NCBI GenBank assembly: GCA_032622095.1
Contig: CP136066.1
Location: 205,056,978 to 205,120,977, forward strand
Direction: 5' to 3'
Length of the DNA: 64,000 bases
DNA from: Siphonodentalium dalli
Taxonomy: Eukaryota; Mollusca; Scaphopoda; Gadilida; Siphonodentaliidae
Shown here piece after piece: positions 1 to 43,254 of the stretch (within the stretch, counting starts at the first letter, position 1; every line of letters begins with the position of its first letter). The position numbers were made by a program, and so were the translations under genes. Under the pieces are notes generated by a model. That model was not told the DNA's origin. It did not search any database and saw only the letters and a program-made list of their open reading frames with translations.

Positions 1-72
1 ATACCGAAGATATTTTAGGCTGTTGAAGGTTTATTTGGGCGTTTTTGGCCGTTTTGTTGGGTAAAGGGTTAA
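1..72. mobile_element. TTAA-flanked MITE family A, right-end fragment
   Basis: The last 72 bp of family A, cut by the window edge. It ends with TGTTGGGTAAAGGG followed by TTAA and matches the right ends of the full copies at 3387-3850 and 32426-32878. The CCCTTTACCCAACA terminus next to TTAA resembles piggyBac-type elements. Confidence 0.8.
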
Positions 73-1082: not shown

Positions 1083-3390
1083 TTAAAGGCCCACTTAATT
1101 TTTGAATCACCAGATCACATTATATACAACATATTCCATGTTATATACCACCCCCAGATCACATTATATACAACATATTCCATGTTATATACCACCGCCA
1201 GATCACATTATATACAACATATTCCATGTTATATACCACCCCCAGATCACATTATATACAACATATTCCATGTTATATACCACCCCCAGATCACATTATA
1301 TACAACATATTCCATGTTATATACCACCCCCCAGATCACATTATATACAACATATTCCATGTTATATACCACCCCCAGATCACATTGTATACAACATATT
1401 CCATGTTATATACCACCCCCAGATCACATTATATACAACATATTCCATATTATATACCACCCCAGATCACATTATATACAACATATTCCATGTTATATAC
1501 CACCCCCAGATCACATTATATACAACATGTTCCATGTTATATACCACCCCCAGATCACATTATATACAACATATTCCATATTATATAACACCCCAGATCA
1601 CATTATATACAACATATTCCATGTTATATACCACCCCCAGATCACATTATATACAACATATTCCATGTTATATACCACCGCCAGATCACATTATATACAA
1701 CATATTCCATGTTATATACCACCGCCAGATCACATTATATACAACATATTCCATGTTATATACCACCCCCAGATCACATTATATACAACATATTCCATGT
1801 TATATACCACCCCCAGATCACATTATATACAACATATTCCATATTATATAACACCCCAGATCACATTATATACAACATATTCCATGTTATATACCACCCC
1901 CAGATCACATTATATACAACATATTCCATGTTATATACCACCGCCAGATCACATTATATACAACATATTCCATGTTATATACCACCCCCAGATCACATTA
2001 TATACAACATATTCCATATTATATAACACCCCAGATCACATTATATACAACATATTCCATGTTATATACCACCCCCAGATCACATTATATACAACATATT
2101 CCATGTTATATACCACCGCCAGATCACATTATGTACAACATATTCCATGTTATATACCACCCCAGATCACATTATATACAACATATTCCATGTTATATAC
2201 CACCCCCAGATCACATTATATACAACATATTCCATGGTATATACCACCCCAGATCACATTATATACAACATATTCCTTAGTATATACCACCCCAGATCAC
2301 ATTATATACAACATATTCCATGTTATATACCACCCCCAGATCACATTATATACAACATATTCCATGTTATATACCACCCCAGATCACATTATATACAACA
2401 TATTCCATATTATATACCACCACAGATCACATTATATACAACATATTCCATAGTATATACCACCCCCAGATCACATTATATACAACATATTCCATGTTAT
2501 ATACCACCCCAGATCACATTATATACAACATATTCCATGTTATATACCACCCCCCAGATCACATTATATACAACATATTCCATATTATATAACACCCCAG
2601 ATCACATTATATACAACATATTCCATATTATATACCACCCCCAGATCACATTATATACAACATATTCCATGTTATATACCACCCCCAGATCACATTATAT
2701 ACAACATATTCCATAGTATATACCACCCCAGATCACATTATATACAACATATTCCATGTTATATACCACCCCCAGATCACATTATATACAACATATTCCA
2801 TGTTATATACCACCCCCAGATCACATTATATACAACATATTCCATATTATATAACACCCCAGATCACATTATATACAACATATTCCATGTTATATACCAC
2901 CCCCAGATCACATTATATACAACATATTCCATGTTATATACCACCCCCAGATCACATTATATACAACATATTCCATAGTATATACCACCCCCAGATCACA
3001 TTATATACAACATATTCCATATTATATACCATTTGAAAGAGGAAGCTCAAAACAGTATATTATCAACTGATCCGGTTGAATAAACTGGGAACATGTTGTT
3101 TTTGTCGAGGTAACAAGGTGTGTACTATGCTTAATTTTGATCAGGACTGTACTATAAAGTATATTATACTCAATGGAAGGGGAATAACTCTATCTCTTAG
3201 TTTGAATTCTGATGCATTCTGGATTGACAAGGGGTGAGTTTTGGAACGAATCTGTATCACTTGGTGGACAGTCCTATGCCACAGCTGTTTCGTATTCTGG
3301 TGGACTATATATATTTTTGGTTCCTCTTCCAAATGGTATATAATTTTGGAATAATGTTATCTGGGCATTGATAATTAAATGGGCCTTTAA
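1083..3390. mobile_element. Inverted-repeat element family E enclosing a large minisatellite
   Basis: The left end reads TTAA-AGGCCCACTTAATT and the right end AATTAAATGGGCCT-TTAA, a short terminal inverted repeat flanked on both sides by TTAA. Almost all the interior is the 44-copy minisatellite at 1111-3030. The right-hand TTAA also serves as the left flank of the family A MITE at 3387-3850. Only one copy is seen in the window, so the boundaries rest on the terminal symmetry alone. Confidence 0.55.
1111..3030. repeat. Minisatellite, 43-45 bp unit, about 44 copies
   Basis: The unit begins CAGATCACATTATATACAAC and ends with TTATATACCA and a run of three to six C. The C run varies between copies, so the frame drifts and long open frames appear in every phase. 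The longest, 464 codons from 1059, is an artefact of the repeat. Variants such as TTCCATATT and TTCCATAGT recur in blocks, which suggests higher-order amplification. Confidence 0.97.
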
Positions 3391-3850
3391 CCCTTTACCC
3401 AACAGAACGGCCCTGTGCCAATGCATTCTCTTATATATGCGAGTCGACCATATGTCGCCTCGCATATATTAGAGAATGCATTGGCTTAACACATATTAAA
3501 AATGATAAAATTGTCAAAGAATGTAGAAAAATATTATAAAAATTGTTTAAAAATGTAAGAAAAAATTATAAAATTGTTAAAGAATGTAAGAAAAAATGGT
3601 AAAAAGTGTTAAAAAAATATTTTTTTAGGCCAATGCATTCTCTTATATATGCGAGGCGACCTATGGTCGACTCGCATATATAAGAGAATGCATTGGCACA
3701 GGGCATAACTGTAACCATCAAAATGTGGTCGATGAACCGGTTCCAATGATATCCATATTTGTATGGTGTTATTGAGACATACCGAAGATATTTCAGGCTG
3801 TTGAAGCTTTATTTGGGCGTTTTTGACCGGTTTGTTGGGTAAAGGGTTAA
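3387..3850. mobile_element. TTAA-flanked MITE family A, complete copy
   Basis: 464 bp bounded by TTAA on both sides, with termini CCCTTTACCCAACA and TGTTGGGTAAAGGG. It carries two copies of a roughly 70-bp palindrome (about 3416-3484 and 3630-3697) in opposite orientation, separated by an A-rich spacer. No coding capacity. The TTAA target and CCC/GGG ends suggest mobilisation by a piggyBac-type transposase encoded elsewhere. Confidence 0.88.
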
Positions 3851-3973: not shown

Positions 3974-4448
3974 TTAAAGGTACTCAATCCGATCAGGCGC
4001 TCCTAAATTACTATTTCTTTGGCTTCGGGGGTAAAAAATATTTGATTCGAGTCGAGGAACCTACCCTTCAAAGCTCAGAATGATTAGATATCGATGTTTG
4101 AAGTTTGGAGATCTGGGCCAAAAATTATTCAAATCCACGTGCTAAACGGACAAATTGCGGTTGTAACTTAATGTAAGATGGATAACTCTAAAATCAAGTG
4201 GTTATTATTGTTAATAGTAACAACGTTATTTTTGAGTTATCCATCTTACATTAAGTTACAACCGCAATTTGTCCGTTTAGCACGTGAATTTGAATAATAT
4301 TTGGCCCAGATCTCCAAACTTCAAACATCGATATCTAATCATTCTGAGCTTTGAAGGGTAGGTTCCTCGACTCGAATCAAATATTCTTTACCCCCGAAGC
4401 CAAAGAAATAGTAATTTAGGAGCGTCTGATCGGATTGAGTACCTTTAA
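3974..4448. mobile_element. MITE family B, long foldback copy
   Basis: 475 bp bounded by TTAA, with termini AGGTACTCAATCCGATCAG and CTGATCGGATTGAGTACCT. The two arms, each about 215 bp, are nearly perfect inverted repeats around a short loop at GTGGTTATTATTGTTAATAG. Non-coding. Related copies lie at 9110, 26268 and 32941. Confidence 0.9.
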
Positions 4449-8123: not shown

Positions 8124-8612
8124 TTATTCAGTCTGGAGTAAACTGCATACCAACATATAAAAAAAAAAAGAACATCAGTATGAATATGAGTGTATATGTT
8201 TACACAGACATGGTATTATTAATTTATTATGCACCCGTACGAAGTTCTATATTTTGCATGTTCTGTGTTAAATCATAGCTTTTGCATTAAACTGATTCAG
8301 GACTGCACGCAACTCTCGTTAACATAGTAACCATGGTAACGGGGATACAAAAAAAACGTCGTGTTAAAACGTACTCGACAGAAACGAAACGCATTTGTCT
8401 GGTGTCAAGCCTCAGGGCTGTCTGGAATATTGCGCGAGGTTTTATGACGGCATCACGGGTGCTTCATGCACTGCTTCTCGGCTTTGCCGCCGTTTCTATA
8501 AATGCTTCGCCGGCAAAAAGTCACACTGCATTTCACTTCCAGTTTGAAGAGTTGTTTTATGTGTATGTTTTTTTTAACCCGTCCATGACTGGAGTGTCCT
8601 GAAATTTTGTGA
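8124..8612. other. Unassigned intergenic stretch
   Basis: Holds an 89-codon open frame at 8333-8602 (+) that I do not recognise and for which there is no splice or neighbour support. Nothing else is visible. Confidence 0.4.
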
Positions 8613-9032
8613 AACCTCTGTGCTAACGCATTCTCGTATAAACCTCTGTGCTAATGCATTCTCGTATAAACCTCTGTGCTAACGCATTCTCGTATAAACC
8701 TCTGTGCTAATGCATTCTCGTATAAACCTCTGTGCTAATGCATTCTCGTATAAACCTCTGTGCTAATGCATTCTCGTATAAACCTCTGTGCTAACGCATT
8801 CTCGTATAAACCTCTGTGCTAATGCATTCTCGTATAAACCTCTGTGCTAATGCATTCTCGTATAAACCTCTGTGCTAATGCATTCTCGTATAAACCTCTG
8901 TGCTAACGCATTCTCGTATAAACCTCTGTGCTAATGCATTCTCGTATAAACCTCTGTGCTAATGTATTCTCGTATAAACCTCTGTGCTAATGTATTCTCG
9001 TATAAACCTCTGTGCTAATGCATTCTCGTATA
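8613..9032. repeat. Minisatellite, 28-bp unit, 15 copies
   Basis: Unit AACCTCTGTGCTAATGCATT plus CTCGTATA, exactly 15 x 28 bp, with C/T variation in CTAA(T/C)G. The unit resembles one arm of the palindromic cassette (CTGTGCCAATGCATTCTCTT), and a degenerate remainder of that cassette follows at 9033-9100. Confidence 0.96.
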
Positions 9033-9100
9033 AATGCGAGTCTTCTATTGGGAGTCTCACATAAAACAAGAGATTACACTGGCCTAACAATGTTTACAAG
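9033..9100. repeat. Degenerate palindromic cassette remnant
   Basis: Holds ATGCGAGTC, GGGAGTCTCA, ACAAGAGATTACACTGGCC and AACAATGTTTAC. The order matches the degenerate cassettes at 40130-40275 and 43255-43405. Confidence 0.55.
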
Positions 9101-9109
9101 TGATTACTA

Positions 9110-9570
9110 TTAAAGGTACTCAATCCGATCAGAGGGTCATATACTACTATTTCTTTGGCTTTGGGGGTAAACACATTTTGATTCGAGTCGAAGCTCAGAG
9201 CGATTAGATATCAATTTTTGAAATCTATTAATTTTCGGAGATCTGTCCCAATCGTTAGGAGAACCACGTGATCAAAACAGACAAATTGCGGCTGTCAGAT
9301 GGATAACTCTAAAATCAAGTGGTTATTATTGTTAATAGTAAGCACTTGATTTTAGAGTTATCCATCTTACACCCGAAAATTTTCTGTTTTGATCACGTGG
9401 TTCTGCTAACTATTGGAACAGATCTCCGAAAATTAATAGATTTAAAAATTCGATATCTAATCACTCTGAGCTCTGATAGGTGGGTTCCTCGACACGAATC
9501 AAATATTTTTTACCCCCAAAGCCAAAGAAATAGTAATATAGGACCCTCTGATCGGATTGAGTACCTTTAA
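9110..9570. mobile_element. MITE family B, complete foldback copy
   Basis: 461 bp, TTAA on both sides, termini AGGTACTCAATCCGATCAG and CTGATCGGATTGAGTACCT, with long inverted arms around a GTTATTATTGTTAATAGTAA centre. Confidence 0.9.
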
Positions 9571-9813
9571 CAATAATAACCACTATATTTTAGAGTTATC
9601 CATATTACCCCGCAATTTGTTTGTTTGAGCTCGAGTTCTCAAGTGGACCACATCTCCAAAATTTAACAAACTTCAAAAATCGATATCTGATCACTCTGAG
9701 CTTTGAAGGGTGGGTACCTCGACTCGAATCAAATATTTTTAGCCCCCCCCCCCCCCCCCCGAAGCCAAAGAAATAGTAATTTAGGGACGCTTAATCGGAT
9801 TGAGTACCTTTAA
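9571..9813. mobile_element. MITE family B, right-half copy
   Basis: Directly abuts the previous copy and matches only the right half of the family, from ATAATAACCACTATATTTTA through an internal C run (about 9743-9760) to GATTGAGTACCT-TTAA. The left arm is absent. Confidence 0.8.
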
Positions 9814-10398
9814 AGGGGTACTGTACGCCATTTTCATTAAATTTCCGGTGACAACAACGATCTAATATCGATAATATATAGAAACATAAGTAATTTGAGT
9901 CGAAGATGTATTCTGTAAACGCTCAGGTTAATAGGCTATCTTAAAATTTAATAATTTAAAAGTTAATAATTTGATAAATTGAATTTATGACTGGAGCCAT
10001 AAAATGGCGTCAATTAAATTACGAATTACCGTAATCAAAAACAGTAATTGAGGGATACTGGATTGTTAAACCGATCCCACACACGATCGCTTAAAATATT
10101 ATGATGATACGGGGAGAACACTCAAGCCACTCACTGACTAGCGATGATACAATAACTTAAATGATTATATGGGACTAGTATGCATATAATATAACTTTTA
10201 TTTGATTCATTTGGTTGAAAACTTTACAAAAATTACTCGACAACGACAATTTGTATTTTTGCATTCCGGTAAATTTGTCATCCGTAACATGACTTCGTAC
10301 TCAACAGACTTTCAAATAATGGAAAAATTGTTACCTTATTCTCCGACTCGGAGACTATAGAAACCAACAACAACATTTGGCGTACAGTACCCCTTTAA
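9810..10398. mobile_element. TTAA-flanked MITE family D, copy 1
   Basis: 589 bp with termini AGGGGTACTGTACGCCA and TGGCGTACAGTACCCCT, TTAA on both sides. The left TTAA is shared with the end of the family B half-copy. A second copy in the opposite orientation lies at 52336-52997. No coding capacity seen. Confidence 0.88.
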
Positions 10399-11319: not shown

Positions 11320-14300
11320 GTAATGCCGTATATAATGGCAAAGAGTTTCTGAAACATAATTTGCTCCAGTGTTCATGACAGGGAGTAAAATAACTGCTAT
11401 ATATTTAGGATCTCTAATGGAACTATATTTTTTAATATTTACACACTAAGTGTTGTCATCACTAAATCCAGCATTCTGATTGGTCGCCGCCCACGTGGCT
11501 AGTTGCAGTTATTTCTCGGTGAATGCGCAACGCATCATGACACCAAGCTAATAACACCATCGATACGTCATTAGGTTTGGAAAGACGAACGCGTAATGTT
11601 TTGGGCGCATTTGGACTCGCGCAGGACTGACTTAATACATCATCGGGTTTCAATATGAAGAGAAATTGTTCCTATTAACTTTTGCCAAGGGTGCTATTGG
11701 GTATTTTGGGCTGATCTTGTCACGATACACTTTTCGATTTAAATAAATTTACAAAAGTGGCTTTTTCGCTAAATGTATATAAATATAAGGATTAACTGTC
11801 ATGTGGACTATTTTTATGGAGATGTAACGGTGAGGTAAGTGGTCATAACTTGTATGTAAAACCCTTCGGGTTTTACACAAGTTATGTCCACTTACCTCAC
11901 CGTTACATCTCCATAAAAACAGTCCACATGACAGTTAATCCTTATTTGAATGTGTCTTTACTTCCTATTTGGATGTGATAAGGAAATCAATATTAATTTG
12001 TTTTAACCCCAGCCGTTTCGAGATCGTTATTCCTTGCTGAAAATGTTATTACGTGACAAAATGGATCTCATATTCGTCGCAATTCTAAACGAAATTTATT
12101 AACCTCAACAATTAAATTTGATTCGAGCCTCGCTAATTAAGGTAGGTTAATACATTTCGTATACAATTGCGACTCCTTATAGAAATCCTACAGTGAATTA
12201 CGTCATTAAGGAACAGGTAATAACTAAGAAATATATTCTCCGCGTTATTTCTTCGACTTTATAAGGTTCCCTGCCAAAACTTAAAAAAGTTTCAAGGTTT
12301 TGCATGTACTGGTGGAATGTGATCTCTACGGACGTTATCCAGAGTAGAGATTCATGGCATGATCTAACAACTGATTCTGCAGTAATTGGTTTTCTTCAAG
12401 ATGACTGAGTTGCTATACATTTTTCTAATTTTCATAGCATTTTGCTCCCTTAATGCTCTGTTGTGCATGGTGCCCAAACCTTTTACACGCCCATCATTCG
12501 GCGTTCAATATAAACAGGTGTTCGGGGAATAAAAATTCCATTTCCATCTTCTAGTTGGGCGACATGTCATGTACACATGACTGACACATAATTTATGCTG
12601 CAAATCCACAGGGAGGCCGATTTGGATTCAAGGATAGACATCTTAGCGTGATTTTGACTGAAATGTATGTGTATATGTGACCCGCCATATCAAATCCAGT
12701 CGGAAGTCGGGATTTCTTTTTACCCTGTGCCAATGCATTCTCTTATATATGCGAGTCGACCATAGGTCGCCTCGCATATATAAGAGAATGCATTGGCCTA
12801 ACAATTTGTTATCATGTTTTTTAAATAAATGTTTCTTACAATTTTTAGGACATAAAATAAAACACATCCATTACTCTGCAGGGATCCCCACACATATATA
12901 GAAGCATATAGAAGAGTGCATGTCGTCTGCACATGTTTGTCTGGGGCGCTGTATGGGTGAAATTATAAAATTGTTAAAGAATACAAGAACAAATTATTAA
13001 AATTGTAAAAAATTGTTAGGCCAATGCATTCTCTTATATAAGAGAATGCATTGGCACAGGGTAAAAAAATCCCGACTTCCGACGGGATTTGATATGGCGG
13101 GTCACATATGGACTAAAGAGAGATCGGTTCTGTGTGCCGGTCTCATTTGGTACATTAATCAATTGCACAATACATAAGGGAACCGAAGTTGACACCGGTG
13201 GATGAGGAAAGCGATTTGTTTATACGTTTGAAACCTCATCCATTTTGTTGAATACCCTTGTTCTGTCGGGAGTCGTGTTTCAACGAAAATGTCTGACTAA
13301 TTGCACCTTTGTAATCTTGTATTATTTATTCACAGACGTGGAGTCTCAGGTTGTGTAGGACTGACTCAGATGGCGATGGGAAAACTAACGGAGAAGAGCT
13401 CGGGGATCCTAACTGCGTGTGGCGACCAGGAGATGCACCCGAACGCACCACGTCACTTTCGCATCCAGGTATAAACTGATTTATGTGTGTGTACTATATA
13501 CGTCTTGTCACCGAGTCGCGACCACGTTGGATCAATCCAGCCCCGTTCCGTTCCGTTTTTAGTGATACAGGTCAAAGTTCTGGAGTATCATTCCATATAT
13601 GGAATTCATTCATATTCAAAAGCTCCATATATGGAATGCTACTCCAGAACTTTGACATGTAGTACTAATAAAACGGAACGGGGCTGGATGGATCCAATAT
13701 ATTGACGCGAATCAGTGACAAGACGTGTATGGAATCAGGGAGCTATAAATGTGTTCCAGAGTCGGGGTGCGAGTGCACCGTAGAATGCTAGAGGTGAAGG
13801 TAACTGAAGAATGGCCTTCACCTGATACATGCGACACGTTATTAAATGATGAAATCTTGTTTATTTGATTTGTACATCATATAAATAATTTAAACTGGTG
13901 AATTAATGAGGAATGGATTTTTGTGAGATAAAAATTATTTCGGTAATAGAACATTAATTAATTTAATTTAACCCTTTACCCAACAAACCGGCCAAAACCG
14001 GCCAAATAAAGCTTCAACAGCCTAAAATATCTTCGGTCTGTCTCAATAGAACCATACAAATATGGATATCATTGGAACCGGCTCCTTGACCACATTGTGA
14101 TAGTTACAGTTATGCCCTGTGCCAATGCATTCTCTTATATATGCGAGTCGACCATAGGTCGCCTCGCATATATAAGAGAATGCATTGGCCTAAAAAATTC
14201 TTTTTTTAACACTTTTTACCATTTTTTCTTACATTCTTTAACAATTTTATAATTTTTAATGTGTTAAGCCAATGCATTCTCTTATATATGCGAGGCGACC

Positions 14301-17300
14301 TATGGTCGACTCGCATATATAAGAGAATGCATTGGCACAGGGCCCTTCTGTTGGGTAAAGGGTTAAGGGCAAAACATCATCCAAGACAAACAAAGTATCA
14401 CAGTCGGGTGTTTCACAGTCGGGTGTATCACAGTCGGGTGTATCACAGTCGGGTGTTTCTCTTTTCTCATCCAATAATACCCTGGACGATACCAGTTTAT
14501 TTGTTGTTTCAATTGTCATATGCAAACATAACGGATAGCTCTTGTTTTGACTTCTACGTGCATATTTTTACATTTTCTTTCCATTTTATTGGTATTATAT
14601 TTTTTCAAGATATTGACCCGGCACTATACATGGCTTTAGTTATTACATGTACATGCAAACTTATCGCTTAGCTTGTGTTGTGCTATGTATATGTTTAGCA
14701 TATATTTCCATATTCTTGGCATATTTTTCAATATGTTCACCGGCACTATATATATGCTTTCAGTTATTACATGCAGAAGTATCGCTTAGCTTGTGATGTG
14801 TTAACTGTGTTTAACACTTATTTTCATATTCTTGGCATTATTTTCAATATATTGATCTGCGGCACAAAACATGTACATGGTTTCAGTTATGACATGCAAA
14901 CGTATCGGATAGCTTTACTTGTGTGTTGTGCCATCTATGCTTAACAATTTTATTTCCATATTCTTGGCCTACTTTTCAATATATGGATCCGAAACTATAT
15001 TTTCTCATTCAACAGGCATCTGTGATCCCATTAATAACGGTACCTGCGTACACGTTAACAGTCGCTTCAAGTGTGGGAACACCGAGCTGGATTGTGCTGC
15101 GTTGAATAAAACTGGTAAGAATCATACTGAATTGTCTCGGCAATTAGGGATGCATGTCTATCGATTTTCCTGGTTATATGCATTCTGGAATGCACAAAGC
15201 ATATATGAGAAACTTCTATTTATCCCGCTCACAACGGGGTTGTTAAAATTGTCTTATATCTCTTCTCTGTGTCTCTCTCGTTCGCTCTCGCTCCCTTTCA
15301 ATGGCTGCGAACACACGTACCAAATTGCGAAAGCATGGTAGGTGTGACAATTTATTAAGGTGGAGTTTGGTGACAATTGGTCGTCATAATTAATATGTCA
15401 TAATTAATATGCCATAGCTAGCCATGTCGCTCGCTGCATATTCGCACAATGAGTGTTCCAAAGTTCGTTATAATCAGCCTTTTTCTTGTTTTGGTCCTTG
15501 TATAGTTCGCTTTGTTTATTCCAGAAACTTTTTCTCAGCTGCAATTCCTCCAACAGATCCGATACAGCTTCATCGGCCCACATGATAATGTTAGCGGAAA
15601 TATGCGTAGAACTATAAACGTCACAAAATAAAAGAACGCAATTCGGGAACTGTCTTAAGACGCATGAAATTAATATAAGTATAGATAAACATACATTGAG
15701 ATCATATCAATAAAACGTACTACATGCATGATATGTGAGTGAATGAGGGATTGCCATGCATGGTCAAACACAATTCGGGACGATCGATCGTGCAATTATA
15801 TATATATCGTAGATAATACATGCAATGTATAGCAAAAGTAATGAGTATAGAGTTCAACTTTGGTGAAACGCAATGCATGGGTTAATTGGTCCAGTCGACT
15901 CATTGTGCGGAAACTTAGCGGGCAACATAGCTAGCTATGGCACAGGATTATGACGGCCAATTGTCACCAAACTCCATCATCATAAATTGTCACACCTACT
16001 ATGCCATGGCTACTGTGGTACGTGTGTCCGCAGCCAATCTCCATACATAGTCTGGTCGATAAAAGGTTTGACCTAGAAAAAATTTGGACTAAGTTGGTTT
16101 TTATTCCATTTTGAAGAGGAATATTTCCTCTACAACATATCCAAAATCCGCTAAAATCCGCTTTGAGCAAACTTTTTTACAGAGATTTTAAAAAATGCTC
16201 ATTTTTCGACCTTGCGAAGTACGTTTTTCTACAATATCCCGCATCGGCGACACCAGAACGCATTAATCCTCCATCCGATATATACCAGTTTGTGTAAAAG
16301 AGTATAGAGGGCGAATAGAGTGACAAGGACAGAAAACAATGCATTCGCGGCGATGAAATGGCTGTCAAAATGGCCGCAACTACAATCCATGCTACGATGA
16401 AAGCAATATATTGGATAACCCCCTATAAGCGAAAATACACATTTGTAATTTACAAGAATGTTGTTATATATCTTTAAAGGCACACATATAATTAAAACAG
16501 ATCTATCTGAATTATTTATCGATCACTGCTACGCACGTTAACCCAATGATTTACGTTCGGGTTTTCTTATTAGAATACATCCAACAGTCGGACCAAAATC
16601 AGTTATGTTGGGCATGCAACACACGAAGTAATATTTCGTCACACAGTGCGTGGTAGTTTCCTTTTGGAATGGTGATTAATTATTGAATGTAAAGCAGAAA
16701 CTGAAGTGTCCACCCTATCTGTGTAAATACTAGTTATATTTCCAGAATTTTCAACACTCTCCGTGACAATAAACCATACACGTATGTCGTAATGCTGATT
16801 ATACTGTCAAGAAACACTTATCTCTTCAACAGAATAGTACCCTATCTCACTAGATCGAAGAGACTGTACATCGTACATTTTATTTAGTACTAATTTTCAT
16901 GGTGCTCCCAAACCGGTTTCTTAGTAGTCAATTATGTTCAAATTACTTCAATCGACACTTTACAACATAAATATGTACAACGCAATACACACTATTAGTT
17001 GTCAGTATCTTGTTGTTTGAAATTATGTTACCATTGCCACCCACATACTTGCGGTAAATATCAGGTCATCAGCGTTTACAGTTATTAGTTCTGCGTTTAC
17101 CATTCACTCAATGTTGCTATTTATGGTTTTGTATGCAGCAGATATGTGTAACATTAGGGAGAATGGGTAAACGCGGCGATGCGGTTGCAGAAAAGGTCGT
17201 ACGTTTCGCGTATATGTGGCCTTAGTGCATTTAAGTGCACACAATTTCCAGGTATAAAGACAGTCTCTGCCATAGAGTATGTAGGCAATTTGGGTTATGT

Positions 17301-20300: not shown

Positions 20301-23300
20301 ACATACTGAAAATAAAAAAGGATCAAGAAAGGCGAAATTGATAAATTTTGTGAAATAAATTTGCCAAAATTTGGTTAAATACTCAATTTATGCCTTTTCA
20401 ATGATGTTTATAAAAAACTCAATTTAACAAGTCCTTCCTTTTGATTTTCTGATTACAGAGCAGCAAACATTTTCCAATACATTGAGTATTTTTGGAGTTA
20501 TGTGCCTCCAAAATTGGGAGTTTGTCTAATTGCGGAGACTCAATTTCTAAGAATTAGCTAAAATCCATATTTTATGGTCCATTATTTAAAAAAAAGGATA
20601 TCTTGCTGTTGTATCAATTTCCTAACTAGATTGTGCCAAAAAAATGATTACTTTATGCATATATGATTGAGAAGACAAAAATGTTCTTAAACAAAATGAG
20701 TGTTCCATTGTATAGCCAAATTTGCCTTGTGGCACAGAACTGATATGATGAAATGCCATATTTGAAGTCATACAACTCGATACATTGATATCCATATGCC
20801 CTGTATTTCTAAAAACCTTTTAAGTATACAAGGTCAAATACACTGTGTTGGAATTGCTATACGCAGTTGTGCCAAAAAAAACTGATGGCCTTGTGAATCC
20901 TTAGTATTGAATATTTTCCAAAAATGGCATGTTGGACTGTTTTTGGATGTTTTTTGTCCATTTTAAAATGTATTTTTTGTGCACAAATAGTAAACAACAA
21001 TGAACACAATTAGTGTTTAATGTGTATAATCATTTGAACGTTCCTCCTAAAACACTTATGTTGGAAAAAATAGGATTACATTGATTGAGCCAATCAACGG
21101 TTACTGGATTTCACATTATTTTTCAAGAAACTGACTCCAAATTTGAACGTTGATAATGGGGTAGGTGTAATCACAAAAGGCTATAATCTTGTCATCCCAT
21201 ATTCTAGTCATTGCAGACAAAAGTTGTTTTATTCCAGTTTGTGTAGATTGTTTCATATGTACTTTAGTGGAGGTATATTTAGAACTTAATGGGCATGTCA
21301 TATAGACCAATCCCGAAATAATAATTCGCCATCGAGTGGTAACACAAAGGATTGTAGCTCTCAATATGAACATCAGATCAGGAAGCAGTAAACTCTGTAT
21401 GAAAGAATGTTTTTAGTAATGTTTTCTGAGATTTTGTCAATATGGTTTCCCCTACCCAATTTTTCCGATATTCAAATTTGGATCAGTTTCCAGAAACTTG
21501 AGTGAAATCCAGTGACATTCATTGACATATCAAATGTAAAGCTATTATTTCAACTGTAAGAGTTTTAGGGTAAACGAACATTACTCTTTACTATTTATAT
21601 ACAAAAACCTTTAAAAATGGACAAAAGTGCCCCGAAATCGCATTTTTAGAAAAAAGTTAATACTGAGGATTCATTGGGCCATAAGTTGTTTTCTACACAA
21701 TGTTTTCGGAAATTCCTTCACAGTGTGTTTAATCATGTATACTTACGTTGTTATGAGAATTGAAGGGAATATGGATTTATATTTATTGAGTTGTATGACC
21801 TCAAATATCCTATTTCATCACGCCGGTTCTCGATCACAGGCAAATTTGGCTGTCCGTGTAATGGAAGACACAATTTGTTTAAGAATATATATTTTTATTT
21901 TTGTCTTCTCAATCATAGATGCATAAGGAAATCATTTTTGTTTGTGAACAAAGACATTAATAAAACAACAAGAGATCCCTTCATTTTTCTTTAGTTTTCA
22001 AAATACAAGACCACAAAAAATGGATTTTAGCTAATTTTGAGAAATTGCGGCTCTGAAATTAGATAAACTCCCAATTTTTGAGGCAATTAATCCGAAAAAT
22101 AATGAACATATCTGGGAAAAGTTTTTTGTTCTGTATTCAGGATTGTCTACGCACTTTACAAAATGGATACACAAATGGAAGGCCTTGTGAAATATTATTT
22201 GTATAAACATTGTTGAAAAGTCATAAATTGATTATTTTACCAAATTTGAACAAATTTATTTCACAAAATTCACAAATTCATCAATTTCGCTTTTCTTGAT
22301 TCTTTTTTATTTTTAGCATGTTGATTTTAATTGGCTAATGTACTTATTCCCAATGAGAAAATTTTGTTGCAAATAGTTTGAGGGAAAGCCACAAATGCAC
22401 TGGACTTTTAACATAATACTAAAGTTCTTGTGTTGCCAATGATATAATTGCTCTAAGCTCTTGCGTCACTGTGCGTGCCGGTAATAAACGTGTGTCTTGC
22501 TAAATCACGAGGCCGAATTTAGGGACTAATTGTGTTATAAACATATATATTAAATTTATAATACTTTCCAAATATACGTGATTAAATCTTGTAAAATAGT
22601 TCATGGGGGATCTGATGCATGCATCTTCTTTTCTTGTTACAAGCATTACATCGAAATTATCACATTTATATACACTTATAGAACAACATAGAAAGGTGGG
22701 TGGTCGGTCCAAATATAAACAATTGCTTGCGTCGGTCCTTGTGGACAAAATATCTATCGACTTCGAGTATAAACAGTATAATAGCTATAACTAAATATTA
22801 TATATTAAATAATATGGATTAATATAATATATACATGTATATAACGCTGATTATTAGCATTCCCCATAGATATGCGAAACATGACGTCGGCGTCACTGCA
22901 GTGTGTGTATGCATGCGACTTTGACATCACGTCACAATATAAGTTCCGATTCACAGGAACCACCCACTATTATATCTATATATACTTTTCTCCAGGTACC
23001 AAGAACATCACTCTGAGGTTTCCTGAGACAGTGGTACCTAACCAAGAGACCAATTATTATTGCATGACATTCGATTTACCACCAGATAACGAGTACCACA
23101 TTATCGCCACAAAACCTGTGATAGATAACGAAGTGGTTCTACATCACATGTTGTTATTTGGATGTGAAGGTGAACATAATTATATATTTACATACTAAGT
23201 GTGATTATCACTAAATCCAGCATTCTGATTGGTCGGCGCCCACGTGGCTAGTTGCAGTTATTTCTCGGTGAACGCGCAACAGCTCATAACTGCAGCCTCA

Positions 23301-26300
23301 TAATTACATCGACGCGTCATTGGTTTTGGAAAGACGAACTCGTAATGTTTTGGGCGCATTTGGACTCGTGCAGGATTGACTTAATAAATCATCGGGTTTC
23401 AATATAAAGAGAAACTGTTCCTGTTAACTTTTGCCAAGGGTGCTATGGGATATTTTGGGCTGGTTTTGTCACGATACACTTATAGATTTAAATACATTTA
23501 CAAAAGTGGCTTTTTCGCTAAATGTATATAAATATAAGGATTAACTGTCATGAGGACTGTTTTTATGGAGATGTAACCGCGAGGTGAGTGGTCATAACTT
23601 GTATGTTCGGGTTTTACACAAGTTATGACCACTCACCTCGCCGTTACATCTCCATAAAAAACAGTCCACGTGACAGTTAATCCTTATTTGAATGAGTATT
23701 CACCCGCGTTGAGTTTGATTGTCGCAGAGGAACGAGACTTTTAGATGTTTGGTGACTTTTTTTGCACATTTAGGAGATGCTGTGTGTCTTTTTGCACGTT
23801 TGAGAGATCATGTGTGTCTTTTTGCACATTTAGGAGATGTTGTGTGTCTTTTTGCACATTTAGGAGATGCTGTGTGTCTTTTTGCACATTTAGGAGATGC
23901 TGTGTGTCTTTTTGCACATTTAGGAGATGCTGTGTGTCTTTTTGCACGTTTGAGAGATCATGTGTGTCTTTTTTGACGATATCATGCGACAATGACCAAT
24001 TCAGCCCGATTGTGAACATGATACAACACATTTCCACATGTTTTGTTTCACTTCGTATAACACAATTTAAGAGTATTTTGCATGAAGATATTTGTATTTT
24101 TCTACCACATAATTATATGATATTCAAAGTGTTATTTGTAGTGTCAGTTTTAGTATGTAATATTGTAAAAGGGACACTTTCAACACACATACATATATGG
24201 ATGTAATCCGGTCGAGAGAAAAACCTAAATACGATGTTTTGTTTTCGAAGTATAAATGGCTTGATTTTAAGAGTACAGTACTCGAGTAAGACCGTGATAG
24301 TTGACTATAAATTACTGATTTCTCGAACACTAGTGCACCTTCAAAAAATGTTAAGATATACAGCAGATTCTCAAAAAGGAAGCCTGTTACAAAAACCTAT
24401 AGTTTATGAACCTAATTTCCTGAAGTAAAAAATCATTATGATGGCTTTAAAGATGCATTATCCAAATTAACCCTTTACCCAACAAAGCGGCCAAAAACGC
24501 CCAAATAAAGCTTCAACAACCTAAAATATCTTCAGTCTGTCTCAATAACACCATACAAATATGGATATCATTGGAACCGGTTCATCGACCACATTGTGAT
24601 GGTTACAGTTATGCCATGTGCCAATGCATTCTCTTATATATGCGAGTCGACCATAGGTCATCTCGCATATATAAGAGAATACATTTTTTAACAATTTTTA
24701 TAATATTTTTCTACATTCTTTGACAATGTTATCATTTTTAATATGTGTTAAGCCAATGCATTCTCTTATATATGCGAGGCGACCTATGGTCGACTCGCAT
24801 ATATAAGAGAATGCATTGGCACAGGGCCGTTCTGTTGGGTAAAGGGTTAACGCTCCTAAATTACTATTTCTTTGGCTTCGGGGGTAAAAGATAGTTGATT
24901 TGAGTCGAGGAACCCACCCATCAAAGCTCATAGTTATCAGATATCGATTTTTGAAGTTTGTTATTTCTCGAAATGTGCAATTATTTGTGACCCAGAAAAA
25001 AATCGTCGTCAACAGACCATCTCGGACAAAATTGCGGATGAAGATGGATAACTCTAAAATCAAGTGGTAATACGGCCACATTTCGTTGAACAAAATGTTG
25101 ATAAATAACACGTTTTGGGAAATTTGATACCATAGTTGACAGTGGTTAGCATTATTTTGTTGCAATTAATCGATTCTGATAACTAAAGTGTATTTTGAAG
25201 AAATGTTGTTGTTGTTGTTGTTGTTGTATCTTGATTATATGGGTATCGTCTGATCGGATTGAGTACCTTTAAATCTCTCTTTTGTTTTTTCAGATGATAC
25301 CCAGCCTCCGCCCGCCAACGCGAAGCCACAATCGTGTGGAATGGTTCCTAGCCAACAATGTGCTAAATTGATTGCATTGTGGACGGTCGGACTTCCTGGA
25401 GAATGCCTGCACGAACAAGAGGGGTTCCCGTTTGGCAAGCATGGTTTCAAAAGAGTTGCCGTACAGGTATAGGAATCCCTATAATAAGTCCTGCTATACT
25501 GAGTCCCGGCTATATTGGCCACATTCATGAATATTCAAATGCTCCATATATGGAATTCGTGAATATTCAAAGCGCCATATATGCATGGAATGCACATCCA
25601 GGACTTTGACCTGTGGAACTTTATCCGCGGAAACGGAGCTGGATGAATTCAATATGGCCGTGATTTAGTGATCTCGCTTATAAGTGAGATCACTAACTCG
25701 CGGTGAATCCGCCATTTGGTCTCCGGAGGTCAAAGTTAACAAGTAGCATCTATTTTTAGCATATGGCTCCAGTCTGGGAATTACCAAAATAAAATGGCAA
25801 CAGGTCGTTACCGAATCGCAGGTGCGAGAACTTCATAAAACTAATTAAACAATCACCCTGGATACATGCAATACGTTTCGCACAGTAGATGGATTGGATG
25901 TATCACGTATGCTTTTGAGTTATTTTTTTTAACGCAAGTACTAGCTATTTATCAGTAACTTATGGGAAGTCCGTTGACAAAAGAGGGCGTCTGAATGTCT
26001 GCATCGTCACCAGATCCTAACTCTGTAGATGACATGGCCACAAAACAATTCTTAAACACGTAGTTGCACTCAGAATAAATTAAATTAAGCCATAAAATAT
26101 TGATAAAAAATGCTCGCACTCAGCTGTCGAATGTTTACAAATGGATGCTACTTCTTAACTTTGACCTTTTACCGGTGGGTTGGGTAAAATGCTAGGAATC
26201 GGGCTATATGGAAATACCGGCCATCTTGAAAATCGCGAACCAGTGATACGGCTTATTGATTGAACATTTAAAGGTACTCAATCCGATCAGAGGGTCCTAT

Positions 26301-29300
26301 ATTACTATTTCTTTGGCTTTGGGGGTAAAAAAGATTTGATTCGAGTCGAGGAACTCACTGGATAACTCTAAAATCAAGTGGTTATTATTGTTAATAATAA
26401 GCACTTGATTTTAGAGTTATCCATCTTACACCCGCCCTTTTTGATCATGTGTTTTGCCAACTTGTGGGCTACATATCCGAAAATTAATATATTTCAAAAA
26501 TCGATATATAATCACTCTGAGCTTTGATGGGTGGGTTCCTCGACTCGAATCAAATATTTTTTACCCCCAAAGCCAAAGAAACAGTAATATAGGACCCTCT
26601 GATCGGATTGAGTACCTTTAACTGTTAAGTTAGTATTCAGGCAGTATGGCAACTGGAAGAATGTAGCGTTCTAATGCATCACCGAAAATCTCAAGCAAAT
26701 CGACCGTACCACTCCATAGAAAACATCATCTGAACTACGCTCAATTGTAAATATTTATTTCTCGATTCGGGACGCAACTATCGGCGATAAAGTAACGAAA
26801 ACGATTTCACCATTGAGAGTCACTGAATTTAATTAATATATAATAATGGCTGTGTGTGTTGTCAATTTGGATTTAAGATTTGTAACAATAACTACTTTGA
26901 GAAAGATTATCCTTCATTACTATTTGATCACCCAACCGGAGTGTTTCACATCACTTGTATGTATCATGTGCATAATGGGATGCTATTTTCACCTTCACAT
27001 CCAAATAACAACATGTGATGTAGAACTACGTCGTTATCTATCACAGGTTTGGTGGCGATAATGTGGCACTCGTTATCTGATGGTAAATCGAATGTCATGC
27101 AATAATATAAAGTTATTATACAATGTTGTGTACAGTATGTGTTTTTCTTGTACTCGTCCAGGTTGTGGTGAAAAGTCATATTGGACGAGACAAGCCATGC
27201 AGTGTCGAGTCCAATATGACTTTTCACCACAACCTGGACGAGTACAAGAAAAACTCATACTGTACACAACATTGTATAATGACATTTTTATTATCCATCT
27301 GTATGTTATCCAAATTTTGGGAATAAAACTTTTGTGGTTATTTTTGGTATTTGTCGGCACTTAATTCTCTATAAAAAAAAGCCTGCATATTGATCATCAG
27401 AAAGCATGATTTGGAAAAGTAAACACAAAAGTGAGAAAAACAACTCAACGCGGAAGTGAAACGTCTGCTAAAATCCAGCAGTGTTGCGCGCGCATCACAA
27501 TTTCACCGATTTATTTCGCAATAGAGTTAATTCGTGACGTCACGGAGTCCCAATAAATAGACAATAGTTAACTGTCATCAGCGACGAACGAAGTTTCTCC
27601 TCGAGTGAGATGCGCAGGATAATTTTTCACGAGGCGTTAGACGAGTGAAAAATAATCCTCGCATCTCACGAGAGGAGAAACTTCGTTCGTCGCTGATGAC
27701 AGTTAACTATTGTGTTTATTATATTTTCCACAACAGTTTGTCACGACACAACTCTAATAAAATGCATTGAGAAGATGTTCCGATTCTGAATATTGACCTA
27801 AATGTTTCCGTTAAATTACGCGCAATGATAAGATAACAACCCAAATAAGGTAAATCGATTACGTCACTCATTCATGAATTTTTTTACTATAGCCGCGCGC
27901 GCCATAGTATTTTACCCCGTATAAGGAACGTGACGTCATTTCATTGACTGATTTCTCCTATTGCCACCAACTTCAAAGGGGATTTTCGGAGGAATTTTTC
28001 AAACAAACAACACACTTTATTGATTAAATTAGTAACTGTTTGGAATGTCATTGTGTGGATAAGCGTTCCTAGTTCTATGAGATATCACTGCTCACTTTCA
28101 TTTGGAATATGCACTCGAATATCAGTGGAATTTGAAGTGGAACTGCTAGAAGATACTAAAGTGGATCTCAACACTGTTTTCATTTTCTTGGTGCGAATGC
28201 ACTTGTGTGAACAATTGTTTATCGCGATTTCGATCTTTGGATTCCGAAGTGTAGCGTAACCAAAAATGTTTCCCAGTTGGTGTTGATCCTGCAAATTCAC
28301 TGAGCTGGAATTTGATGTCGATAACACATTGGTGGTCTGTGTTTTTGGTGATGTATTTTGTGTTATCTGACTATGCACTGGAACTGAGACAGTTATTTTG
28401 GTGTAAGGGGAGTAACCCAAAACGTGCAAATCGAATTACGTAATTCGGAACGTGCGAGGTTGGGATAAATAGTCCGTCATCGCTGGCAGTAGGATAAACC
28501 TCTGGGAGTAGGATAACATCGTGGCACTTCCGGGAGTGGGGATACGATTATTATTTTTGCAGAAAAAGTTACTGAAAATATAATAAAAAGTGATATTGTA
28601 CAGTCGGGAGTCCAATATGACTTCCGGGAGTCCAATATGACCTTTTCCAGGACTATCACGTGGCGGCTTTTGCCCAATCGGAAATGGTGTTAGTTAAGGG
28701 ATGGATAATAATAACTGGTCTCTTTGTTAGGCACCGCTGACATGTCTCCGGAAACTTCAGAGTGATGTTCTTGGTACCTGGAGAAAAGTATAGATATAAT
28801 AGTGGGTGGATCATGTGAATCGGAACTTATATTGTGATGTTATGTCCAAGTCGCATGCATACACACATTGCGGTAAAGCTATAGCAGATAATTTGTGATT
28901 CAGGACGCGACTCGTCGAATTATACTCAAAGTATTGAAAGTAGACCTGTGTACCTTACTCGTATTTAAATTCGCGCAGTACTATTTTTCGCTCAGTTTTG
29001 AATTCGCGCACCTAGCTGCGCGAATTCAAAGCTGACAAAATTAATTTCGTAATATTTCTGTGATATGTTCGTATATCTTGGAGCTGATGACAATTTCGGT
29101 TCTTAGTCATTTGAGATAGTATATGTGTAATATTAAACACCATCGCGGCGGATTTTCATCGTGTAGACAAACTAGTAACTACATACGTCATAATTTTGTG
29201 GCGACCTGGAATATTAATATTTCTTATATATACAAGCATTTCGGTCTTTATAGCGGTTAGCCGAATGTAAATATATGCATACATGTACATGTATATGCGT

Positions 29301-32300
29301 AATTGTCTATATATTCAACCGTTTATAATATATGTAAACTCAGCAACAGAGCCCTCTTGTATTTAGATTAAACTTGGGAGTCGTACTATTTTTCGCTCAG
29401 TTTTAAATTCGCGCACCGATGGGTGCGCGAAAAATAGTACTGCGCGAATTTAAATACGAGTAAGGTAGTAAAGGACTATAAAGGTCCATCAACACATAAA
29501 ACATGGCACACCGTATATAGTTATTTGATTCATTGTACTACTGGGTCCTTGGTCCTTGTTTATCCAGCGGAATGAATACGTATACGCATCGTGCCCAGCA
29601 GAAACTCGATGTAAGCTTCATTTTCTTTCTCCAATCAGAATTAAATCATTTACGAGGAAATATGCATTCAAGCGAGTAAATAAATGGTTCATTCGTTAGG
29701 CAATATCGTATAGTAATAGAAAGCCCAGCTAATCGAGTACGAAAGTATGTTGTAAAATGTAATTGCAGCTGCTGCGCCCAAGCGGAATCAAAATAGAGAA
29801 TCAACTAGTGGTTCTTCGTTATATTATATACAAGTATAATCAACAGACTTATATTTGCTCATTCAATTTGCAAAAGCTGGTTCTATAACTTTGTTCAGCA
29901 GACAAAACTGTTCTCAGGATATAAATTACGTTTCATCACCTTCCCGCCAAGAACCATTTTCATTGGTTCAGAAGATTGTTCATATATGTTGAGAAAGAAC
30001 TTGGTTCTCCATTTGAGTACACTTTTAGTTGTTCCCCGGGGAGCTAATGGTTTCAGTTGTTGCATTATGTAACTCCTCATTTAGAACCTTGCTAGGGATC
30101 TGATGGTTTTAATTAAAGGTACACACTCCGATTCGATGGTCCGGTATCATCAGGTTACAACAACAACAGCAACGACGATGCTTTAGTTATCAGAATCGAT
30201 TAATTACCCAAAAATAATGCTAACCACTATCAACTCTATATATAGTATAAAATTTTCCAAAACGTGTTATATATCAACATGTTGTTCAACCCAATTTGGT
30301 ATCGAGAGTATGTCAGTCGGCTCGTCAAATATTTGCTAGGCCGCCAAATATTCCAGGTGGTGAAAAATTATAGATTTCAAAAATCGGTATCTGATAAACT
30401 CGGAGCTTTGATGGGTAGGTTCCTCGACTCGAATGAAATATATTTTACCCACGAAACCAAAGAAATACTAATTTAGGAGCGTTAATTCGGATTATGTATC
30501 TTTAATCGTATAACTACTATGTCAAACGAGTTTTATGTGACGACTTGTACGTTGATTTAAAAGTATAGTACTTCCGTATAATGTTAATTGTTGTGGACAC
30601 CGTTTCAGGTTCATTGGAACAACCCAAACTTGACAGAGAATCTAACTGATTCATCGGGTTTGAATCTATTCTACACATCAAACCTCCGTCAAAACGACGC
30701 GGCGATACTGACAGTGGGACAGGAATACATCGAGATATTTCCTGGATCATCGCAGACCATCACGAAGGGGCATTGCTCCCCGGAATGTTCCATGAGGAAG
30801 TTTGCTGGCTCCGTCAACGTCACTATGGTTATCAACCACATGCATTATTTAGGTAACCCATTAAGATATATCAAACGATCCATATATATACCCAGTGGCG
30901 ACAGGGGTGTGTGCATGTGGCCAGAGTGTGGGGTGTCTATATAACCAGTATGCACCACAGCTAAATGGTCTAAATTTTCAACAGTTCGAAATGTTATGCC
31001 TCACAAAACATTTCTTGTGACATTTTACGCCAGATTATGGTTTCCATTTTTTGATTTTCCAGCCAATAATTAGAGGGGGGATTTGAGTTTTAGACCAACA
31101 GTGTCATAGTTTTCTATATTTAGTCAAAATTTTGGTCTGAAATTGCTATCAGTTGCATGTAAGGTATCGAAGTTGTATTGGAAATTTTCCAACGTTATAT
31201 AGGTGGTATTAGGTTGTAAATTTCCATTAATTGGACAATTTGAGGTAGCATGCAGTCGGATAATTCCAACCAAATTGGGAGGGGGTGCAAATGGCTTACA
31301 GCCAAGTGATACCCGAGTCAAGTGATGCCATACAAAGTGATACCCAAATTGGTAAAATTGTTTAGCTGATATTTTTAGAGCAGTAATCCGCACTAAAATG
31401 TTCGGAGCATGCCAAGACTGTTCAAAGAAGGAGAACTCTATTTGTTAGCATATTAGCTTAGAGATTTACTGCCAATTACGATCGAAATAAACCACTTTAT
31501 TATGCCTTTATAGACTAATAATGGACACATCTTCAGTAATAAACCACTTTATTATGCCTTTATAGACTAATAATGGACACATCTTCAGTAATAAACCACT
31601 TTATTATGCCTTTATAGACTAATAATGGACACATCTTCAGTAATAAACCACTTTATTATGCCTTTATAGACTAATAATGGACACATCTTCAGTAATAAAC
31701 CACTTTATTATGCCTTTATAGACTAATAATGTACACATCTTCAGTAATAAACCACTTTATTATGCCTTTATAGACTAATAATGGACACATCTTCAGTAAT
31801 AAACCACTTTATTATGCCTTTATAGACTAATAATGTACACATCTTCAGTAATAAACCACTTTATTATGCCTTTATAGACTAATAATGTACACATCTTCAG
31901 TAATAAACCACTTTATTATGCCTTTATAGACTAATAATGTACACATCTTCAGTAATAAACCACTTTATTATGCCTTTATAGACTAATAATGTACACATCT
32001 TCAGTAATAAACCACTTTATTATGCCTTTATAGACTAATAATGGACACATCTTCAGTAATAAACCACTTTATTATGCCTTTATAGACTAATAATGTACAC
32101 ATCTTCAGTAATAAACCACTTTATTATGCCGTTATAGACTAATAATGTACACATCTTCAGTAATAAACCACTTTAGTATGCCGTTATAGACTAATAATGT
32201 ACACATCTTCAGTAATAAACCACTATAGTATGCCGTTATAGACTAATAATGTACACATCTTCAGTAATAAACCACTATAGTATGCCGTTATAGACTAATA

Positions 32301-33732
32301 ATGTACACATCTTCAGTTATATCTGTATGTTATCTTCAAAATAGCTAGGTCTAGTCTTGAAATCAGGATTTATAACATGTTGTTGTTGTTGTAATTGTGC
32401 AAGGCACGGAAGCGATATACCATCTTTAACCCTTTACCCAACAGCATGGCCATGTGCCAATACATTCTCTTATATATGCGAGTCGACCATAGGTCGCCTC
32501 GCATATATAAGAGAATGCATTGGCTTAACACATATTAAAAATGATAAAATTGTCAAAGAATGTACAAAAATATTATAAAAATTGTTAAAAAAAGTAAGAA
32601 CAAATCATAAAATTGTTAAAGAATGTAAGAAAAAATGGTAAAAAGAATTTTTTTAGGCCAATGCATTCTCTTATATATGCGAGGCGACCTGTTGTCGACT
32701 CGCATATATAAGAGAATGCATTGGCACAAGGCATAACTGTAACCATCACAATGTGGTCAATGAACCGGTTCCAATGATATCCATATTTGTATGGTGTTAT
32801 TGAGACAGACCGAAGATATTTTAGGCTGTTGAAGCTTTATTTGGGCGTTTTTGGCCGTTTTGTTGGGTAAAGGGTTAAACTCACACATGGTGAATGTTTT
32901 CGACCGACCAACGTAATTGGGGATGATGATTTATCGTATTTTAAAGGTACTCAATCCGATCAGAGGGTCCTATATTACTGTTTCTTTGGCTTTGGGGGTA
33001 AAAAATATTTGATTCGAGTCGAGGAACCCACCCATCAAAGCTCAGAGTGATTAGATATCGATTTTTGAAATCTATTAATTTTCGGATATGTAGCCCACAA
33101 GTTGGCAGAACACGTGATCAAAACGGACAAATTGCAGGTGTAAGATGGATAACTCTGAAATCAAGTGGTTATTATTGTTAATAGTAAGGCCAAAAAAAAA
33201 AGTGTTTTGGTTCTCGGGCAATTTTTTTTTCAAATCAATGAGGGAGGGAGGGAGGGAGGGTTTTATTTTTATTTTTTATTTTTTTCTGCACATAGTAAGC
33301 ATGGACAAAGATACCTCTGTCTAGTAATAACCAGAAAGGTAGAGGGAACTGTTATGCATATAAACTCATTTAGTCTTACATAAAAATGACATTGTACTAC
33401 CAGTGTATGACTGGGATTACCTAACATTATATAATCCCCCTGACATTAACTACTGTTATTGTTGTCTAAAAACTGATACCTCTCCATTCCAATATGTGAT
33501 CCTGAATTTAGTACTGTGCCTTTCAATTGTATAAAGTTACAATTAGTGTAAGTTAGTTCACAATGACTAATTGTAAGAAGCGCATGAGGATCAGCTAATC
33601 ATTTTCTTAATTGTAGTCATCTACTTCATGTTGTAAGCCTGCAAGTCACTTTTAACACATTACACGTTAGAGCTCAATGCACACTAATATTCAACACATA
33701 TCTGCTATGGACATGGTTATAAAAAAAAAAAA

Positions 33733-37100: not shown

Positions 37101-37328
37101 TGGTCGGATTCTGCAATTGCATTTGGGGCATCATATAGAAAATTCTACTGCAAATCTAGGGCGGGTTTTGATTTGGATATTTGGTCTGGTCCATGGGATG
37201 CAGTTAGAACATCGAGGTCGGCATCCACGAAGAACCGTTAAAGGAGAACCCATGCAGACATAACCCATGCAGACACAGTGTCTTTGTTGGCACCCGTCAA
37301 AGAGAAGGATGGGTACTGTAAATAAATG

Positions 37329-40129: not shown

Positions 40130-40275
40130 AGAGATTTTATTAAAATGTGCTTATAAGAGAATACATTGGCGTTACAATAGTTACCTTGATTGAAAGACAG
40201 TTCATTATCTTATATATGCGAGACTCGATTCATATGGGAAACTCGCATATATAAGAGTGGTCGTTAATGCTGCAC
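40130..40275. repeat. Degenerate palindromic cassette, standalone form
   Basis: Has TTATAAGAGAATACATTGGC, TTATCTTATATATGCGAG, CTCGCATATATAAGAG and a CAGCGCAGC tail. Same order as 43255-43405, without family A or H ends. A half cassette, ACTCGCATATATAAGAGAAT then GCATTGGCACAGGG, lies at 40417-40450. Confidence 0.65.
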
Positions 40276-40464
40276 CAGCGCAGCTCATGAAAGGGTTAAT
40301 CTATGCTACGAAGTAGAAACTTAGACAGTAATTGTTGTTGCCGAATTTCACCCCATGCACGGGGGAGGTTTGATGCATATCTATATAAAAAATAATAATA
40401 ACAAATCTGTTTGGCCACTCGCATATATAAGAGAATGCATTGGCACAGGGTTTTCGCAAAAAAA

Positions 40465-43010: not shown

Positions 43011-43254
43011 AATAACAATATGTACACTAACGAGCGTATTTAGCCACGCCCCAATAATATGTGTCATACATGTGAAAGTCGATGTTGCGCTTGACAATTC
43101 TGTGACGTCAGTATTATGACTTATACCCTATCTGGAATTTTCAAAGGAGGATACTCTTCAAGTATCTCTTGAGTTGAGTGTTTATTAATGTAAATTTAAC
43201 GTGACATCCTGGTGCGAGACATCCTATCCTTCATGACTAGAACTTCATAATTAT

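Follow-up and report, generated by a model that had tools for sequence, protein, structure and literature searches.

It is in corals of the genus Acropora that the closest precedent for the locus analysed here has been described, under the name of CMITEs. As the excerpted text of PMC2872659 presents them, CMITEs are TTAA-flanked MITEs of about 100 bp, non-coding, with differing end repeats around a shared interior of 75 bases, with piggyBac-type CC[C/T]T tips, and also found in tandem arrays; a composite form, CMITE-IN, arose from a CMITE inserted into a TTAA-bearing element. In mammals, the Tc1/mariner MITE MER6 is described, in excerpts of PMC6887750, with an inserted SINE, the variant being MER6A, and in bivalves the modular MITEs of the Pearl family, for example DTC84 and CvA, have modules linked to short tandem arrays (PMC5139131, from partial text). 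Other composite or chimeric MITEs appear in the excerpted texts of PMC1562414 and PMC12368964. The original prediction had stated that no named element type resembles the one found here, which was too strong a statement given that the coral CMITEs are similar in kind.

The window, by which we mean the whole 64-kb stretch of DNA analysed, offers a compact case of one hairpin-ended module residing in MITEs with unrelated ends, together with its relatives and an array derived from one of its arms. This module, called M in what follows, consists of CCCTGT, a 69-bp palindrome, an AT-rich spacer, the same palindrome inverted, and ACAGGG, and can be written CCCTGTGCC...GGCACAGGG; its outer edge reads CCCTGTGCCAATGC. 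As in the CMITEs of the published excerpts, there is a TTAA-flanked non-coding element (family A), there are families with different ends and a common interior, and there is a tandem array; the CMITE composite formed by insertion, as is probable here. Unlike in the CMITEs as described there, what is shared here is a module with paired hairpin ends instead of a single 75-base interior, the sequence of the coral interior is unrelated, and one of the two hosts (family H) lacks the TTAA that flanks every CMITE family. MER6 and, on the nesting reading favoured below, the M hosts are both composite MITEs by nested insertion, the insert of MER6 being, in the text cited, a SINE in a single host family. 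DTC84, likened here by its description, resembles the present locus in having a palindrome near a repeat junction and a MITE-like module joined to an array (PMC5139131, same excerpts), with the difference that the Pearl arrays are satellite-like internal repeats, whereas the array reported below grew from the module's outer arm.

That the palindrome is a genuine repeat, as originally predicted, follows from its first 20 bases, GCCAATGCATTCTCTTATAT, which have 36 matches in the window with up to 3 mismatches, against none in 100 dinucleotide-preserving shuffles. The intact palindrome is 69 bp long, with two 33-nt arms and 3 nt between them. Sixteen instances were found in the window, namely 12 paired module ends in A or H, 3 degenerate copies, each of which has either a probable second-palindrome stub or an inner edge like that of the module, and one 27-bp half; with hits accepted up to E 1, an HMM built from 13 palindromes added nothing else in the window except the units of the array and a stub at 40 kb. 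Read from outside to inside, each palindrome lies in an asymmetric context, with CCCTGT on its outer side and, on its inner side, the AT-rich spacer and CTAACAA, CTAAAAA, TTAACAC or a variant. The outer CCCTGT, or a one-base variant of it, is present in 12 of the 12 A and H palindromes, the variants being CCATGT at one end of the third A copy and one end of the fourth, and CCTTGT at the other end of the fourth. The asymmetric centre GTCGACC-ATA-GGTCGCC also points in the same outside-to-inside direction in 11 of these 12 palindromes, those 11 being the ones that retain a centre. Given this polarity of outer edge, inner edge and centre, two facing palindromes are the inverted ends of one module.

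Six complete or near-complete copies of M, from 213 to 339 bp by their coordinates, are present in the window, five in family A and one in H. All six lie within hosts, so that a solo complete copy was found in none of the six cases in these 64 kb; what the window has outside the hosts is a single half copy and the degenerate relatives.

Family A has five full copies in the window, with TTAA at both ends in all five and with differing flanks, and the palindrome is found twice in each of them, as the original prediction had it. The first (A1, 3387-3850, minus strand, long arm on the right) contains a 293-bp M at 3411-3703 (minus), whose palindromes occupy 3417-3485 and 3629-3697. The second (A2, 13968-14366, plus), with a 146-bp long arm on the left and a 23-bp short arm on the right, carries a 228-bp M at 14115-14342 (plus) with palindromes at 14121-14189 and 14268-14336, their starts lying about 30 bp and about 153 bp, respectively, from the tips on either side. 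In the third (A3, 24467-24850, plus), M spans 213 bp at 24614-24826 (plus), with palindromes at 24620-24688, damaged at the inner edge, and 24752-24820. The fourth (A4, 32426-32878, minus) has a 282-bp M at 32450-32731 (minus; palindromes 32456-32524 and 32657-32725), and the fifth (A5, 43421-43860, plus) has a 269-bp M at 43568-43836 (plus; palindromes 43574-43642 and 43762-43830). Of a sixth copy only an end is present, cut by the window edge at 1-72 (minus).

The tips of family A, TTAACCCTTTACCCAACA, agree between both ends in 14 to 15 of the 16 bases that follow TTAA in all five copies, and the tip CCCTTTACC fits the CC[C/T]T motif as it is defined in the excerpts of PMC2872659. This combination of TTAA and CCCTTT points to a mover of the piggyBac type, and family A would accordingly have been mobilized by such a transposase, judging from its termini. 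The piggyBac and PiggyBat transposases can bind subterminal palindromes (PMC11707139, from partial text), those described there being short, 14-19 bp, compared with the 69 bp of M. Further TTAA-flanked inverted-repeat pairs are found in the window at 3974-4448, 9110-9570, 26268-26621, 27568-27706, 28965-29453, 9810-10398 and 52336-52997, with the matching tips TTAAAGGTACTCAATCC, TTAACTGTCAT, TTAAATTCGCGCAG and TTAAAGGGGTACTGTAC among them; the pair at 3974-4448, whose arms are 236 nt long, forms a near-perfect hairpin.

Family H is a different kind of host. The element (12673-13109, no strand assigned) has 47-nt inverted ends beginning ATATGTGACCCGCCATATCAAATCC..., 96% complementary, which enclose M; TTAA is absent from its ends, and it is flanked by TA on both sides if its tip is taken as TGTGACC. 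It is present once, its 20-base tip matching its own two ends only with up to 3 mismatches in the window. Its M, 339 bp at 12723-13061, lies between the H arms with the flanks TTTTTA and TAAAAA, and is placed on the minus strand because the H spacer matches the A spacer, with the long arm on the left, on that strand. The prediction of two palindromes in H holds in so far as two are there, the first complete at 12729-12797 (69 bp, plus), while the second, at 13020-13055 (minus), has only 36 bp, its central 33 bp missing and the rest identical to the family A majority sequence. As the H arms are complementary, H without M would be a short hairpin, the joined flanks being one base short at the joint. 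Such close-set arms are frequent here: 70 inverted pairs (at least 28 nt, within 1500 bp, M pairs included) were counted, and among the 25 longest, 8 that are not M pairs have 3-49 nt between their arms. Within the H spacer, about 110 bases (12850-12960) have no match to family A among the matches listed and look by eye like extra sequence.

Both the A2 module and the H element are predicted to fold strongly as single-stranded DNA. The inverted M ends of A2 extend over 86 nt counted from 14114 with 97% complementarity, and the module (14114-14343) reaches -103.8 kcal/mol where its shuffles average -19.1, with none of 200 as good; H (12676-13106) folds at -146.2 kcal/mol against a mean of -41.8, with none of 100 as good. 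Foldback-type elements such as Tm1 also have long inverted ends that fold on themselves, with tandem subrepeats in those ends. In M, by contrast, each end is itself a near-perfect palindrome in which no tandem subrepeats were seen, and 31-bp subrepeats are found in the spacer.

What A and H have in common is more than the palindrome. The CCCTGT and first palindrome of H are identical to the family A majority sequence over 75 of 75 bases, and the H spacer, compared in module orientation with those of A1, A2, A4 and A5, scores higher than every one of 1000 shuffles in each case; in the opposite orientation, the shuffles that scored as high, out of 1000, numbered 220 for A2, 114 for A1, 10 for A5 and 62 for A4. 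The likeness then stops sharply at CCCTGT in four contexts: the long-arm side of A, the short-arm side of A, H, and a half copy ending at 40450, the tip of the M ends being constant in all of them but for one-base changes at one end in A3 and at both ends in A4. Among 15 comparisons of flanks, with A represented by A2 only, the left and right flanks of H match each other as expected, 12 are unremarkable against shuffles, and those of H left and H right with the flank at 40450 had 2 of 300 shuffles as high each, with a run of T in common. The outer flanks of H are unlike those of A2, the A copy compared, which agrees with the prediction that the ends of the two families are unrelated. The unit common to A and H is M and not a lone palindrome, given a spacer that is partly common and outer edges that are sharp; the original prediction had left the spacer and CCCTGT out of the shared unit, and had also missed the half palindrome at 40418-40444 and the origin of the array.

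Sharp edges at the same base in four contexts, paired ends and a shared spacer together favour a nested hairpin-ended MITE followed by amplification of A, and on balance we consider it somewhat more likely than not that M is such a MITE, or the remnant of one, nested in different MITEs and passively amplified in family A. On this reading M, which is non-coding, would be, or derive from, a small MITE with hairpin ends that may once have moved by them; it would then have become nested in family A between the 146-bp and 23-bp arms, to be copied whenever A moved, and in H between the two arms, at the centre of the would-be hairpin. The order of these events is likewise conjectural.

Several observations speak against nesting. 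All six complete copies of M are in hosts, with no solo copy in the window. TA adjoins M in H and nothing of the kind adjoins it in A, so that no constant target duplication is apparent, and even the TA in H could be there by chance, because a palindrome often has self-complementary bases where its two halves meet. The spot between the two H arms would rarely be hit by a single random insertion and is suspiciously central. The short arm of A hardly exceeds the end repeat and directly adjoins M, for which nesting has to invoke a subsequent deletion or a different kind of joining. Over 32 bases, moreover, H and A2 are not significantly alike at their inner edges, with 319, 1173, 411 and 728 of 2000 shuffles as high in the four pairs. 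These were part of 28 pairwise comparisons, uncorrected, of which the 9-kb copy with the second palindrome of H (0 of 2000) and with the stub side of the 43-kb copy (4) stood out, as did the two H edges (32 of 2000) and the 43-kb copy with the stub side of the 40-kb copy (35 of 2000); the other 24 pairs, all four H-A2 pairs included, had at least 55 of 2000 shuffles as high.

The main rival to nesting, end replacement, takes M as a core that has persisted from an old MITE lineage while the ends of A and H were newly substituted around it, for example by template switching in gap repair. We hold this to be possible, if doubtful. The confinement of all complete copies of M to hosts is what it would predict, and the CMITE families of PMC2872659, which in the text cited have differing end repeats and an interior in common, provide a parallel. 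The degenerate copies near 40 and 43 kb are consistent with it as well, since they have an outer flank in common (0 of 2000 shuffles as high) and the flank of the 40-kb copy leads into TTAACCCTTTCATGA, another TTAA-type tip, so that M-like cores may long have resided in TTAA elements. A random joining of new ends, however, would not readily yield an outer edge at the same base in four contexts, and the H ends are without TTAA.

These degenerate copies had been predicted as standalone cassettes at 9033, 40130 and 43255. Degenerate copies do exist, but their actual positions are 9014-9083, 40203-40262 and 43295-43373, and none is a clean lone cassette: inward of the palindromes at 40 and 43 kb come about 32 bp and an apparent stub, and the copy at 9 kb has a module-like inner edge. 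The 43-kb relative (43253-43373, minus) comprises the palindrome, a 32-bp spacer and about 10 bases at 43253-43262, taken by eye for a second-palindrome stub and missed by the HMM, but included in the alignment of the 40-kb and 43-kb copies, which takes in the stub side as well as the palindrome (114 columns, 72%). The 40-kb relative (40152-40262, minus) comprises the palindrome, a spacer and a weak stub of a second, inverted palindrome at 40152-40170 (HMM E 0.029). Their outer edges are CCTCTGT at 9 kb and CAGGT at 43 kb, and none is recognisable at 40 kb. To these is added the outer edge of M in a further context, the 27-bp half palindrome at 40418-40444 with its ACAGGG (40418-40450, minus).

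Leading up to the 9-kb copy is an array (8612-9034) in which a 28-bp unit is repeated about 15 times and which runs into the degenerate palindrome (whole feature 8612-9083, plus). The unit is the palindrome's outer arm, CCTCTGTGCTAATGCATTCTCGTAT, preceded by three A; flank and palindrome alike have AAA at the unit's boundary, which slippage could have left so. The inner edge of this copy is the one that resembles that of H palindrome 2, and the TTAA-flanked inverted-repeat element at 9110-9570 starts 26 bases from the copy on its inner side. A likeness of the far end of the 43-kb copy to that of the 9-kb copy, or to the right end of the 40-kb copy, was unsupported (161 and 258 of 2000 shuffles as high). 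The degenerate copies are best read as decayed and presumably older relatives of M.

Another explanation, close to the original prediction that the 70-bp cassette moves by itself or is exchanged between elements, is that what moves or is exchanged is the 69-bp palindrome, either travelling by itself or copied between elements by gene conversion. This we regard as rather unlikely: the 16 instances in the window include no clean lone 69-bp insertion, polarity and CCCTGT edge are those of a module end, and the spacer is shared too, so that independent movement of the cassette is not the preferred reading. The contrast between 75 of 75 identical bases in the H and A palindromes and 8 differences in 53 bases in the best ungapped spacer block of H and A1 would speak for it, but all 8 differences lie within the first 30 bases, where 31-bp subrepeats may have been rearranged; for the same reason we rejected the spacer divergence of H and A as a clock. 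Better conservation of the palindromes than of the rest of A was not significant, with 11 changes in 685 positions compared with 20 in 730 in the long arm (p 0.15; 5 gapped columns of A3 set aside).

Correction of one arm against the other would be expected to leave changes on both sides of a pair. In an alignment of 14 palindromes with 10 distinct rows, 7 cells had both-sides changes against a shuffle mean of 2.4, with none of 500 shuffles as high, as exchange of the palindrome with arm correction would give, although related sequences may exceed shuffles without any such structure; the pairs changed on both sides, 3 among 33, are not unusually many, since 137 of 500 shuffles had as high a number, and this argues the other way. 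We take this as a hint, not proof, that the arms were corrected against each other. M could also be an exchangeable core that raises the transposition of the MITE carrying it, kept while TTAA and non-TTAA ends from different superfamilies change around it, arm-to-arm correction preserving its palindromes, and this we judge to be quite unlikely. If M were kept for helping its hosts to move, it would bear on why the interiors of some MITEs outlast their ends, the question raised by the CMITEs in the excerpts of PMC2872659; if its nesting were passive, it would exemplify an ordinary route to new composite MITEs.

It had further been proposed that the cassette could act as a tiny bidirectional core promoter, since it contains TATATAAG on both strands. 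The motif is indeed on both strands of most cassettes, 28 of the 30 copies in the window falling within the 16 instances, and it is retained in the 40-kb and 43-kb relatives; the 2 copies outside the cassettes amount to no enrichment, 20 shuffles having averaged 4.25 copies over the whole window. That the palindrome has been kept as a putative bidirectional core promoter or other cis element is very improbable in our judgement, considering that any motif in a palindrome appears on both strands, that TATATAAG is lost in the 9-kb copy and that, within A, the palindrome shows no constraint beyond that of the long arm. The motif itself is what would suggest a promoter role, and nothing else in these data calls for one.

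Outside the window, the 20-mer was found neither in viral contigs nor in genome contigs of collections that are viral or prokaryotic, and the same applies to the inner hairpin pattern, which has 11 places in the window; the family A tip was likewise missing from viral contigs, and the 16-base tip of H had 8 single matches there, presumably due to chance. These missing outside copies say little, the collections being viral or prokaryotic. Rfam returned no matches, and element sequence strings searched in the literature led only to papers unrelated by title and abstract. For a 60-mer of the coral CMITEs, its 21-base part had no matches in the window with up to 3 mismatches, its alignment to the cassette was no better than with shuffles (805 and 850 of 2000 as high), and the one BLAST match in the window covers 13 bases (23477-23489, E 0.10) that lie in none of the elements.

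The window has other features besides. A gene for a copper type II monooxygenase (Pfam PF01082, PF03712) is represented by fragments at 22851-23195, 30588-30941 and 34864-35493, the middle one below the Pfam cut-off, in a scan that covered 10 of the 35 listed open reading frames; these suggest that the window is eukaryotic. Two long tandem arrays, at 1110-3031 with a 44-bp unit and at 37328-39968 with a 35-bp unit, fall in 4-kb bins whose GC skew is strong and of opposite sign, -0.32 and +0.36, respectively, and three short arrays within 47544-50391 share a tandem unit of 122 bp, the likeness of the third being judged by eye.
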